From Lysobacter sp. 5GHs7-4 (GTDB taxonomy: Bacteria; Pseudomonadota; Gammaproteobacteria; Xanthomonadales; Xanthomonadaceae), in assembly GCF_021284765.1 (NCBI RefSeq), contig NZ_CP089924.1, positions 1,258,001-1,322,000 on the forward strand: DNA of 64,000 nucleotides, written 5' to 3'. Positions 10,728-58,495 of the stretch are shown here, one piece after another. Each line of letters starts with the position of its first letter. Position 1 is the stretch's first letter. Made by a program: the position numbers and the translations under genes. The notes below the pieces were generated by a model. The model searched no databases and was not told the origin of the DNA. It saw nothing but the letters and a program-made list of their open reading frames with translations.

Positions 10728-10759
10728 GTAGGAGCGGCGTGAGCCGCGACCGCGAATCC
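10728..10759 (+). repeat. REP-like extragenic element
   Basis: GTAGGAGCGGCGTGAGCCGC core with a GCGGC/GCCGC hairpin (10734-10738 with 10743-10747) followed by GACCGCGAATCC. Related units lie at 11408, 19693, 20345, 52639 and 57734. It sits 86 bases before composite repeat copy 1. Confidence 0.7.
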
Positions 10760-10813: not shown

Positions 10814-11311
10814 TAGCTCCCTCCTTTGACAAAGGGTGAGGCCGTGCGTTTACGAACCGCAGGTTCGTGCACGGGTGAACGACAACAGGCCGTGCCTGTT
10901 GGCCGGGCGGGTTGGGGAGGATTTGCTCTTGCTATTGTCTTCGCTTCTTCCGACCGAAGGTCAAAGGCTTCCGCCTGCTGCGCATGCGGGTCACTTTCTC
11001 TTGCTGACCCAAGAGAAAGTAACCAAAGAGAAGGGTCTGAGCCCAGAGCTCCCGTGTGGTTTCGGTTCTTGCGCCGGGATTTTTCGATAAGACATCCCTG
11101 TCTTATCGAAAAACGGCGCGCGTCCTGCGCGCCGCCCTTCGGGTCTGGGAATGGTCGTGTGGCTTCGGACCAATGGACTTCAATGCCGGAGCAAACTCAA
11201 CTGCAACTGCAACTGCAACTGCAACTGCAACTGCAACTGCAACTGCAACTGCAACGGCAACTGCAACTGCAACGGCAACTGCAACGGCAACTGCAACGGC
11301 AACGGCAACGG
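10814..11311 (+). repeat. Composite hairpin-hexanucleotide repeat, copy 1
   Basis: In order: a TAGCTCCCTCCTTTGACAAAGG unit interrupted by about 73 extra bases (10836-10908), then GGGTTGGGGAGGATTTGCT. Next comes an 11-bp hairpin ACTTTCTCTTG/CAAGAGAAAGT (10993-11020) and a perfect 15-bp hairpin TTTTTCGATAAGACA with loop TCCC (11080-11113). A GGCGCGC/GCGCGCC hairpin (11115-11133) and 19 hexamer units of CAACTG or CAACGG (11198-11311) follow. Copies 2 and 3 carry G:C where this copy has A:T at one stem position of the 15-bp hairpin, and both arms change together. Confidence 0.85.
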
Positions 11312-22840: not shown

Positions 22841-22869
22841 CGTCATCCCCGCGTAGGCGGGGATCCAGT
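22841..22869 (+). repeat. Extragenic palindrome GTCATCCCCGCG-type
   Basis: CGTCATCCCCGC, then GTAG, GCGGGGATCCAGTG, a short palindromic element. The same motif recurs at 57873 and 58069 (with GAAG instead of GTAG). It lies between the convergent spoT and bamD genes. Confidence 0.6.
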
Positions 22870-39774: not shown

Positions 39775-39783
39775 TGCTACCAT
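39775..39783 (+). promoter_or_regulatory. Possible extended -10 of the btuB riboswitch transcript
   Basis: TGCTACCAT reads as an extended -10 (TGnTAnnAT) immediately upstream of the aptamer. No clear -35. Confidence 0.35.
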
Positions 39784-39789
39784 GCGCGG

Positions 39790-40012
39790 GCTTGAGGTGA
39801 TTGCCGGCCCCGCCGGCGATTGAAACGGGAATCCGGTGCGCCGGTCGTCCGAGCGGAGAATCCTCCGTTTGGCGCGACGGCAAATCCGGAGCTGCCCCCG
39901 CAACGGTAAGTAAGACGAACGATCCGCAGCGAGCCACTGTGCGCAGGCATGGGAAGGCGCGGACCGGAGGGCTGGAGGCCCTCGCTTGCAAGCCCGGAGA
40001 CCGGCCTGAGGC
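39790..40012 (+). ncRNA. Cobalamin (AdoCbl) riboswitch
   Basis: Clear landmarks in order: GAAACGGGAATCCGGTGCG (39822-39840), the B12 box GCTGCCCCCGCAACGGTAA (39891-39909), GCCACTG (39932-39938) with GGGAAGGC (39951-39958), and AAGCCCGGAGACCGGCC (39990-40006). The expression platform to the btuB SD (40129) is about 115 bases and contains C-rich runs such as CTCTCCCCC that could pair with the AGGAG SD. It should repress btuB and the following operon when cobalamin is plentiful. The boundaries are approximate; identification is secure. Confidence 0.96.
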
Positions 40013-40140
40013 TGACCCGACACGCGGTGGGCGCTGTCATGGGGCTGCCTGCGTCCGCGCGTCGCCGCCTCGTCCTCTCCCCCTGCGTGTCTCCGACCCA
40101 TCGTTGTCCGCGCGGGTAGGCGCGGGCCAGGAGCCATGCT

Positions 40141-52638: not shown

Positions 52639-52669
52639 CAGGAGCGGCGGGAGCCGCGACCGTGAATCC
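52639..52669 (+). repeat. REP-like extragenic element
   Basis: CAGGAGCGGCGGGAGCCGC then GACCGTGAATCC; the same 86-base offset to the composite repeat as in copy 1 (10728 to 10814). Confidence 0.65.
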
Positions 52670-52724: not shown

Positions 52725-53093
52725 TAGCTCCCTCCTTTGACAAAGGAGGGTTGGGGAGGATTTGCTCTTGCTGTTGTTTCTGCTTCTTCTGACCGAAGGT
52801 CAAAGGCTTCCGCCTGCTGCGCATGCGGGTCACTTTCTCTTGCTAGCCCAAGAGAAAGTAACCAAAGAGAAGGGCTAGCGTGACCAAACCTCCCGTACGA
52901 GCGCGGAGCTTGCGCCGGGATTTTTCGATAGGACATCCCTGTCCTATCGAAAAACGGCGCGCGTCCTGCGCGCCGCCCTTCGGGTCTACGACTGGTCGTG
53001 TGAGTGCGGTGCTTTTGGATTCCAATGCCGCGGCAACCGCAACCGCAACCGCAACCGCAACCGCAACCGCAACCGCAACCGCAACCGCAGCGG
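52725..53093 (+). repeat. Composite hairpin-hexanucleotide repeat, copy 2
   Basis: TAGCTCCCTCCTTTGACAAA then GGAGGGTTGGGGAGGATTTGC. Next an 11-bp hairpin (52832-52859), a 15-bp hairpin TTTTTCGATAGGACA with loop TCCC (52921-52954), a GGCGCGC hairpin, and nine CAACCG units with a final CAGCGG (53034-53093). It lacks the 73-base insert of copy 1. The hexamer tract is CAACCG here rather than CAACTG. Confidence 0.85.
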
Positions 53094-57733: not shown

Positions 57734-57806
57734 TCGCGGCTTACGCCGCTCCCACAGAAGGCGGCGGCGATGCTGTAGCTGTCTGTGGGAGCGGCGTGAG
57801 CCGCGA
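57734..57806. repeat. REPIN-like inverted pair
   Basis: Arms 57734-57759 and 57781-57806 each hold the GGGAGCGGCGT(A/G)AGCCGCGA core or its complement, inverted around a 21-base loop; 24 of 26 positions pair. It ends in TGAGCCGCGAAGCG. Confidence 0.72.
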
Positions 57807-57856: not shown

Positions 57857-57957
57857 TTCCCTTGCTGTTGCCCGTCATCCCCGCGAAGGCGGGGATCCAG
57901 TGCCTTTAGCGTCTTCCGGCACGTAAGTCAGGTCCTTCGCCTTTAGCTCCCTCCTTT
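57857..57957 (+). repeat. Direct repeat unit A (second copy 196 bp downstream)
   Basis: About 101 bases beginning TTCCCTTGCTGTTGCCCG and ending CTCCCTCCTTT, including the CGTCATCCCCGCGAAGGCGG palindrome and the CGTCTTCCGGCACGTAAGTC block. An identical copy is at 58053-58153. Confidence 0.75.
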
Positions 57958-58055
57958 TTATAAGGAGGGTTGGGGAGGATTTGCTGTTGCTCTCCTTTCG
58001 CCAGCTTGTCACGAAGGTCAACGGCTTCCGCTTGCTGCGCATGCGGGTCACTTTC
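57944..58055 (+). repeat. Partial composite element next to copy 3
   Basis: TAGCTCCCTCCTTTTTATAAGGAGGGTTGGGGAGG with CTTCCGCTTGCTGCGCATGC and GGGTCACTTTC, matching the start of the composite repeats but stopping before the hairpins. It then runs into a second copy of the 101-base direct repeat. Confidence 0.65.
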
Positions 58056-58153
58056 CCTTGCTGTTGCCCGTCATCCCCGCGAAGGCGGGGATCCAGTGCC
58101 TTTAGCGTCTTCCGGCACGTAAGTCAGGTCCTTCGCCTTTAGCTCCCTCCTTT
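58053..58153 (+). repeat. Direct repeat unit B
   Basis: Identical to 57857-57957 over about 101 bases, offset 196. Composite copy 3 begins at its 3' end. Confidence 0.75.
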
Positions 58154-58495
58154 ATCAAAGGAGGGTTGGGGAGGATTTGCTTTGGCTTTGCTTTCGTCTC
58201 TTCTGGTCGAATATCAAAGGCTTCCGCCTGCTGCGCATGCGGGTCACTTTCTCTTGCTAGCTCAAGAGAAAGTAACCAAAGAGAAGGGCTAGCGTGACCA
58301 AACCTCCCGTACGAGCGCGGAGCTTGCGCCGGGATTTTTCGATAGGACATCCCTGTCCTATCGAAAAACGGCGCGCGTCCTGCGCGCCGCCCTCCGGGTC
58401 TACGGTTGGTCGTGTGAGTGCGGGGCTTTTGGATTTGAATGCCGTGGCAACTGCAACTGCAACTGCAACTGCAACTGCAACTGCAACCGCAGCGG
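58140..58495 (+). repeat. Composite hairpin-hexanucleotide repeat, copy 3
   Basis: TAGCTCCCTCCTTTATCAAA then GGAGGGTTGGGGAGGATTTGC. An 11-bp hairpin (58246-58273), the 15-bp hairpin TTTTTCGATAGGACA with loop TCCC (58335-58368), GGCGCGC, and six CAACTG units with CAACCG and CAGCGG (58448-58495). The hexamer tract is the shortest of the three. Confidence 0.85.

Follow-up and report, generated by a model that had tools for sequence, protein, structure and literature searches.

The host genome of the DNA analysed here (G000; one contig of 4,709,885 bases) contains a non-coding interspersed chromosomal repeat made up of a REP, a C-rich/G-rich unit, three hairpins and a hexamer tract, and all 39 of the full copies found in it are oriented with the replication fork. 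This bias is much stronger than the strand bias of the genes. We favor, with a probability of about 0.45, the reading that this REP-containing composite repeat would be copied and corrected at the fork, by a mechanism that we infer from the pattern of the copies, and tolerated at gene ends. No description of this repeat or of its orientation was found in the open-licence literature.

Architecture of the element

The window, which is the whole stretch of DNA analysed, covers 64,000 nt of G000 and includes three copies. The sequence-only reading had reported the same parts in the same order at three places, and all of these parts were located: a CTCCCTCCTTT(G) unit, GGGTTGGGGAGG, an 11-bp ACTTTCTCTTG hairpin (hairpin 1), a 15-bp TTTTTCGATA hairpin (hairpin 2), a GGCGCGC hairpin (hairpin 3) and a CAACNG hexamer tract. 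The features are as follows.

10730..10749, plus strand: copy 1 REP (AGGAGCGGCGTGAGCCGCGA), left edge of the composite (sequence and REP scans)
10817..11003, plus strand: copy 1 A-unit (CTCCCTCC/GGGTTGGGGAGG) with an extra segment of ~70 bp within, to the end of the hairpin 1 5' arm
10993..11020, plus strand: copy 1 hairpin 1, 11-bp ACTTTCTCTTG stem (sequence)
11080..11113, plus strand: copy 1 hairpin 2, perfect 15-bp stem, TCCC loop, A:T subtype
11114..11134, plus strand: copy 1 hairpin 3, CGGCGCGC stem; read on the minus strand, TTTTT follows (terminator-like)
11198..11311, plus strand: copy 1 hexamer tract, CAACTG/CAACGG
52640..52659, plus strand: copy 2 REP, variant
52728..52842, plus strand: copy 2 A-unit, to the end of the hairpin 1 5' arm
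52832..52859, plus strand: copy 2 hairpin 1
52891..52925, plus strand: copy 2 weaker plus-strand hairpin TCCCG...CGGGA, then TTTTT
52921..52954, plus strand: copy 2 hairpin 2, perfect 15-bp stem, TCCC loop, G:C subtype
52955..52975, plus strand: copy 2 hairpin 3; TTTTT after it on the minus strand
53034..53087, plus strand: copy 2 hexamer tract, nine CAACCG units
57787..57806, plus strand: REP upstream of the tandem units that precede copy 3
57947..58061, plus strand: truncated A-unit in tandem before copy 3, ending just past the hairpin 1 5' arm
58143..58256, plus strand: copy 3 A-unit, to the end of the hairpin 1 5' arm
58246..58273, plus strand: copy 3 hairpin 1
58335..58368, plus strand: copy 3 hairpin 2, G:C subtype
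58369..58389, plus strand: copy 3 hairpin 3; TTTTT after it on the minus strand
58448..58489, plus strand: copy 3 hexamer tract, CAACTG

The ~70-bp extra segment inside the CTCCCTCC unit of copy 1 is present in 13 of the 39 genome copies. The difference noted earlier in the 15-bp hairpin, A:T in copy 1 and G:C in copies 2 and 3, is real and concerns stem position 11/24, on both arms. All three copies stand between convergent genes (GGDEF-EAL/PilZ, AraC-type regulator/DUF480 and two-domain ABC ATPase/NHL-repeat protein), which corrects the location given by the sequence-only reading, between convergent genes or after a regulator gene. CGTC-type palindromes (CGTCATCCCCGCG[A/T]AGGCGGGGATCC) were seen near some copies, at 57,873-57,895, 58,069-58,091 and 22,841-22,863 of the window, and in the relative G013 one element is flanked by two of them in direct orientation.

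Copy number and spread

A whole-genome scan of G000 with the exact hairpin 2 pattern gave 38 places, versus 0 for a control pattern. Blastn with copy 2 listed 96 matches in the same genome, among them 39 long ones and 24 confined to the A-unit, the remainder being short pieces or secondary matches of the hairpin 2 palindrome on the opposite strand. An anchored scan that recorded orientation, run on the fetched regions, yielded 39 full copies, namely the 38 and one with a diverged hairpin 2 that came from blastn. Because 40 of the 142 blastn candidate regions were scored, this count is a lower bound (at least 39 full copies; diverged ones may be missing). The copies are distributed unevenly, as one replication arm has 29 and its opposite 10 (p about 0.003), and no known full copy lies around the terminus between 2.61 and 3.37 Mb.

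Among relatives, blastn with copy 2 gave matches in 39 of 60 genomes (11 candidates per genome scored), some of which are hexamers or single parts only. By eye, the three hairpins can be seen in order in further Lysobacter and, outside that genus, in five genera of the family (loci L043, L044, L048, L051 and L061), with stems that diverge yet stay paired; beyond the family, the loci fetched from the rest of the order have no more than hairpin 1 in comparable form. Further copies in the genome and the same order of parts in other genomes, both of which the first reading had left to be looked for, thus exist. Plasmid and phage collections, searched in distant mode at E 1e-5, returned zero matches to the element.

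Orientation relative to replication

The dnaA gene of G000 is located at 342.8 kb, and a single dif-like site was found nearly opposite, at 2718.4 kb, with 3 mismatches to the dif consensus; a control gave no match. The GC skew of 41 sampled stretches broadly fits this placement of origin and terminus, with exceptions. The copies change strand near dnaA, between those at 339 kb and 371 kb, and a second time across the dif-like site, such that 39 of 39 point from dnaA to the dif-like site. The probability of this outcome is 2e-12 at 1:1 and 4e-10 at a gene strand bias of 57.5%, values that overstate independence because some copies are duplicates of one another or inherited in common. Judging from the orientation, the top strand of the element would be the lagging-strand template on both arms.

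Two possible sources of the bias were rejected. The gene strand bias in the fetched stretches, 270:199, is far too weak. Isolated REPs do not impose a direction either, as those far from the element divide 20:20 (522 kb sampled), with 15 of the 20 anti-oriented ones in two clusters. REPs within 1 kb of copies are co-oriented by 54:2, and A-unit matches near elements, full ones included, by 62:0, the distant ones being 5:2. Separately, nine REP matches stand in tandem, 109-117 bp apart and all against replication, at G000:C1:847,078-847,982. Sites between convergent genes provide a built-in control, because a gene lies upstream in either orientation and transcription is neutral; here 28 of 28 copies follow replication. 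At tandem-gene sites the ratio is 10 with the gene to 1 against it, so transcription or selection may also matter.

A similar polarity was found in three draft relatives. Exact matches to the hairpin 3 pattern number 28 in G012 (7 contigs), 32 in G013 (7 contigs) and 37 in G014 (10 contigs), and those of each contig lie on one strand, although 7 of the 24 contigs hold a single match and are uninformative on orientation. The exception is G013:C7, with four matches on the minus strand and then one on the plus strand. We fetched the 296-kb gap between them (292-588 kb) because an origin or terminus was expected there, and dnaA was then located at about 295.2 kb. Every exact match on the dnaA contigs of G012 (4 matches) and G014 (7) points away from dnaA, and with the 5 of G013:C7 this gives agreement for 16 of 16. 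Six further hairpin 3 matches carry one mismatch: three have the strand of the other matches on their contig, one has no other match beside it on its contig, and two lie on the opposite strand to theirs (G012:C1:1,086,993 and G014:C5:382,058), both of the latter lacking the TCC loop.

The relatives G005, G001 and G011 all carry the repeat family and a Y1 transposase. With the terminus taken as opposite dnaA, G005 has 47 co-oriented and 50 anti-oriented copies among the exact matches listed (97 of 210, with a shorter pattern), and G001 has 23 and 27 among the matches listed (50 of 120). On the dnaA contig of G011 the matches listed comprise 3 co-oriented and 4 anti-oriented ones. Because these three genomes hold the family without the bias, polarity is confined to one clade and does not characterize the whole family.

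The arrangement of the copies in G005 was examined in 20 fetched regions with 44 copies, 33 of them at convergent sites. By hairpin 2 they fall into subfamily X (CATACGGG, 24 copies) and subfamily Y (CCGATAAG, 11 copies, and TCGATAGG, 8 copies), with one copy untyped. Inverted neighbors closer than 700 bp combine X with Y in 18 of 19 cases and X with the untyped copy in the other, and same-strand neighbors are X and X only. Copies that share one of the three hairpin types have a mean identity of 0.897 (0.84-0.91 depending on the type), as against 0.702 for copies of different types. Fetched G000 copies are single or head to tail and none is inverted. Derivation of such singles from inverted pairs, one partner having been lost, was considered, and only 2 of the 20 G005 regions proved to have a flank that matches a G000 element region.

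Mosaic structure and homogenization of the copies

In 26 of the 39 copies a REP precedes hairpin 2 at a distance of up to 400 bp, and additional A-units stand head to tail ahead of many copies. Among 31 A-unit matches that lack the remaining parts, 20 break off right after ...CTCTTGC or a near variant, which is the first loop base of hairpin 1, i.e., its apex, and 18 of them are followed by a REP at a distance of about 15 bases or less. Two further broken units, missed by the script, look alike by eye, and the other nine differ or are unrelated. Pairwise homology of the 39 copies starts at the REP, at the A-unit or past an inner insertion, and in most cases it stops within the hexamer tract. 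The element is a mosaic without sharp ends, and for that reason no cleavage sites were seen.

No clean empty sites were found in relatives, hence no insertion junction was seen. At site 2 of G013 the entire intergenic stretch is absent, and site 4 of G012 is deletion-like, with a remnant left. The G012 counterpart of the copy 2 site (L111, G012:C16 at about 72.1-72.5 kb) has a different sequence there, ~430 bp long, which on inspection by eye possibly codes for a short membrane protein. For the earlier proposal of a mobile non-coding element speaks that presence of the element varies between species; the ends, which are not sharp, speak against it. A mini-insert of ~20-27 bp (TCC...GGATTTCCTTCGGTC), resembling a separate tiny mobile repeat, was noticed within REP palindromes and hairpin 1 arms, at the G000 copies at 1,146,093 and 3,858,809, in hairpin 1 of two G000 copies and in G013:C4 near 42.8 kb.

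Comparison with G013 shows that copies are retained at fixed places. Out of 25 G013 copies examined (of the 32 exact matches), 20 occupy sites of G000 copies, so the 39 copies are not all independent events; the matched flanks are ~83-94% identical. At 19 shared sites the counterparts have an identity of 0.804, versus 0.798 for permuted partners (10% of 1000 permutations as high). One of the 20 shared pairs, with a misaligned copy, was left out of this test (counterpart mean 0.783 with it and 0.804 without), and it was solely for this misaligned copy that the G000 counterpart ranked first of 39. Mean identity within the genome is 0.874 in G000 and 0.866 in G013. Copies are homogenized within each genome, and the counterpart at a shared site resembles a given copy no more than one picked at random does. 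Copies must therefore often exchange sequence, or be replaced time and again at fixed sites. The 5 of 25 examined G013 copies without a G000 counterpart are all co-oriented, as judged for two by contig agreement, for two by their place on the dnaA contig and for one by gene order with the window.

Such exchange is also what the main rival explanation builds on, which is selection against rearrangement. Opposite copies on one arm would invert the stretch between them, so that only a co-oriented arrangement survives, whereas co-oriented copies on opposite arms are inverted repeats and exchange between them would keep replication polarity. Ribosomal RNA operons, with their co-orientation with replication, are a comparable pattern. 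We find this explanation unlikely: a score of 39 of 39 would demand very strong selection, G005 keeps many similar copies both ways despite a mean identity of 0.84-0.91 within hairpin 2 types, and the five G013 copies without a counterpart follow replication as well.

The sites common to two species, together with the origin-to-terminus direction of every G000 copy, could also reflect a KOPS- or Chi-like signal of chromosome polarity, read by a translocase, recombination or segregation protein, with selection against the wrong orientation. Signals of the KOPS type should be densest near the terminus. There are only about 39 sites, none near the terminus, and kin possess the repeat family without polarity, which makes such a signal highly improbable.

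Covariation in hairpin 2

Over the 39 copies, stem position 11/24 of hairpin 2 is A:T in 22 and G:C in 17, with zero mixed pairs. Covariation was analysed with 30 distinct hairpin 2 sequences with 4-base loops, aligned gap-free, after exclusion of 15 of 45 rows (14 centered on a 3-base loop and one mis-centered). Paired cells made up 92.4% of 450, a figure that is favored because each hairpin was centered by best pairing. Double changes were present at 12 of the 15 stem pairs, which 0 of 500 shuffles reached; there were 53 double-change cells versus 12.6 in shuffles, and covariation was 0.378 versus 0.141 shuffled and no higher than 0.136 in slid versions. From species to species the stems diverge strongly with pairing retained, and the TCC of the loop is kept in 29 of the 30 aligned sequences while stems vary. 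Folding of the 189-nt core of copy 2 gives z = -6.0 for RNA and -6.5 for DNA.

The sequence-only reading had argued for selection on the hairpin structure, and had tied this to further compensatory changes in the stem arms. Such changes were found at the 12 of 15 pairs, and it is well supported that pairing is kept by selection or another force. The aligned sequences support hairpin 2 as a maintained hairpin and do not separate RNA from DNA structure, because palindromes can likewise be re-created when template switching occurs at the fork.

Gene context and possible RNA functions

Gene context was obtained with a home-made codon-score gene caller. In G000, 28 of the 39 copies are between convergent genes, 10 in tandem with a gene, 1 in tandem against it and 0 between divergent genes, and 38 are downstream of a gene pointing the same way. 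As background, the 428 neighbor pairs of these fetched stretches, with the element sites counted in, comprise 70 convergent, 287 tandem and 71 divergent ones. In 20 regions of G013, 15 of 21 copies are convergent, 4 tandem with, 1 tandem against and 1 divergent. As REPs of other bacteria also prefer gene ends (PMC3733652), the location at gene ends is in itself no proof of a terminator role.

The anatomy of an intrinsic terminator, a G+C-rich hairpin and then a T run, was found in all three window copies on the minus strand and, by scan, in two of the three on the plus strand. A T5 run is present at hairpin 2 in 39 of 39 copies, and these T5 arms come after a weak hairpin when the plus strand is read (mean -13.4 kcal/mol) and after hairpin 3, a strong one, when the minus strand is read (mean -19.9). 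A consensus scan gave 7 terminator-like sites in copy 1 (1.2 in shuffled sequence), three of which lie in hexamers, and 3 each in copies 2 and 3 (1.1 and 1.5 shuffled). By its sequence the core has the build of a bidirectional intrinsic terminator, and a terminator role is compatible with it.

The element might accordingly be a domesticated bidirectional terminator or a 3'-end RNA element that ends convergent transcripts, its orientation being a side effect. The terminator put forward earlier gains from the 38 of 39 copies that follow a same-direction gene, from the 28 convergent and 0 divergent sites as compared with 70 convergent among 428 pairs, and from the hairpin-T5 arrangement on both strands, with TTTTT after hairpin 3 (minus, 3/3) and after the weaker plus hairpin (2/3). 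It leaves the single orientation at all 28 convergent sites unexplained, and termination needs no REP, G-rich unit or hexamer tract. The scan is not striking for copies 2 and 3, hairpin 2 of loci L046, L047, L053 and L057 has no T run, and the preference for gene ends is shared with REPs of other bacteria (PMC3733652). At the 10 tandem sites, moreover, the stronger minus-strand terminator has no neighboring gene to stop. We therefore doubt that termination is what the element is for.

A consensus scan of the three window stretches found no sigma-70-like promoter. In Rfam 15, the only match above gathering score was the cobalamin riboswitch of the window (39,778-40,023, 100.2 bits), which lies outside the element; the best scores on the copy 2 stretch were PhotoRC-I at 20.1 bits (cut-off 45) and RsmY at 13.9 bits (cut-off 57). 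The loops of hairpins 2 and 3 contain GGA on the minus strand, which presumably fits the CsrA consensus, and a decoy RNA for CsrA/RsmA would agree with the TCC loop of hairpin 2 (minus-strand GGA) being kept in 29 of 30 sequences while stems change. The RsmY-like match on the minus strand is weak (E 0.58, far below its cut-off) and at chance level, the window stretches gave no promoter-like site, and an RNA role leaves the replication orientation unexplained, so we give the decoy very little credence.

Comparison with known repeat systems

The closest resemblance is to REP, BIME and REPIN sequences and their RAYTs. Like these, the element is intergenic, palindromic, present in many copies and gene-end-preferring, it has a REP upstream in 26 of 39 copies, and the G000 RAYT gene is flanked by the REPs of the element. 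The inverted pairs of G005 resemble the heterodimers formed by some REP families (PMC3733652). In contrast to REPs of the GTAG superfamily, which are GTAG-tagged palindromes of 20-40 bp, frequently associated with a RAYT, the core hairpins are other and larger and a REP is one part. The element is about 350 bp long with three hairpins, single or head to tail in fetched G000 copies, and REPs near copies do not form an inverted unit (54 co-oriented, 2 opposite) as in BIMEs or REPINs. Furthermore, the element follows replication and isolated REPs do not.

IS200/IS605 elements move as single strands via the lagging-strand template and their orientation follows replication (PMC5371812, PMC6006769); a preference for termination sites is also reported (PMC5371812). 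The element shares with them and with their non-autonomous derivatives the orientation with replication (39/39 in G000; not in G005, G001 and G011), the abundance of hairpins and a top strand that would lie in the lagging-strand template. It differs from them in lacking sharp ends with subterminal hairpins and a cognate TnpA, the partner found being a RAYT only, in the homogenization of its copies and in having none known near the terminus.

With MITEs the element has in common that it is short, non-coding, dispersed and variable in presence. MITEs have defined ends with terminal inverted repeats and a target duplication, whereas here the ends are not defined and the homology ends scatter. On these grounds an ordinary MITE or IS is ruled out. 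Ribosomal RNA operons, as a pattern, are likewise dispersed, co-oriented with replication and homogenized within the genome; unlike them, the element has no known transcript or promoter-like site and its presence varies between species. The GGGAATC heptamer repeats of Xanthomonas, in the same bacterial order, are also intergenic and G-rich, and differ in that neither the leading nor the lagging strand is reported to be favored (PMC4692102).

Proposed mechanism and implications

The most economical reading of the observed anatomy, orientation and homogenization is fork-coupled copying or annealing of one strand, combined with loss of promoter-harming insertions. Copies would be made and corrected from single-stranded DNA at the replication fork. 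Copying or annealing of one polarity, with the top strand of the element as lagging-strand template, would fix the orientation, as in the single-strand transposition of IS200/IS605-like elements. Insertions that break promoters would be lost, leaving copies at gene ends, where the hairpin-T5 core may terminate transcription in both directions, a by-product that would make the element tolerable. Against fork copying stands the terminus preference of IS200/IS605, set beside the lack of known full copies between 2.61 and 3.37 Mb.

The resident RAYT is a candidate enzyme, and this only because REPs belong to the composite. This RAYT, REP-flanked, is the one Y1 protein found in G000. Its presence as cause of the bias was rejected, since each of the 10 relatives examined, with or without the bias, was found to have at least one Y1 gene. 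The RAYT frame, of 170 codons, lies in G000:C1:859,600-863,000; REPs in both orientations flank it and an alternating REP tandem array is nearby.

More tentatively, the element may be a replication-polarized repeat that is multiplied and homogenized by one-strand copying at the fork, with no enzyme of its own, and whose copies map the direction of replication. If this is true, the units that stop at the hairpin apex would be traces of interrupted copying, and the polarized form would have arisen inside one genus, as another Lysobacter has inverted heterodimers. One genus thus holds polarized and non-polarized states of one family, which offers a natural comparison. The strand flip of the copies may be of use in locating the origin of a draft genome. 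Because the polarity suggests that single-stranded DNA at the fork is involved, the way in which REP-like repeats spread becomes directly testable.
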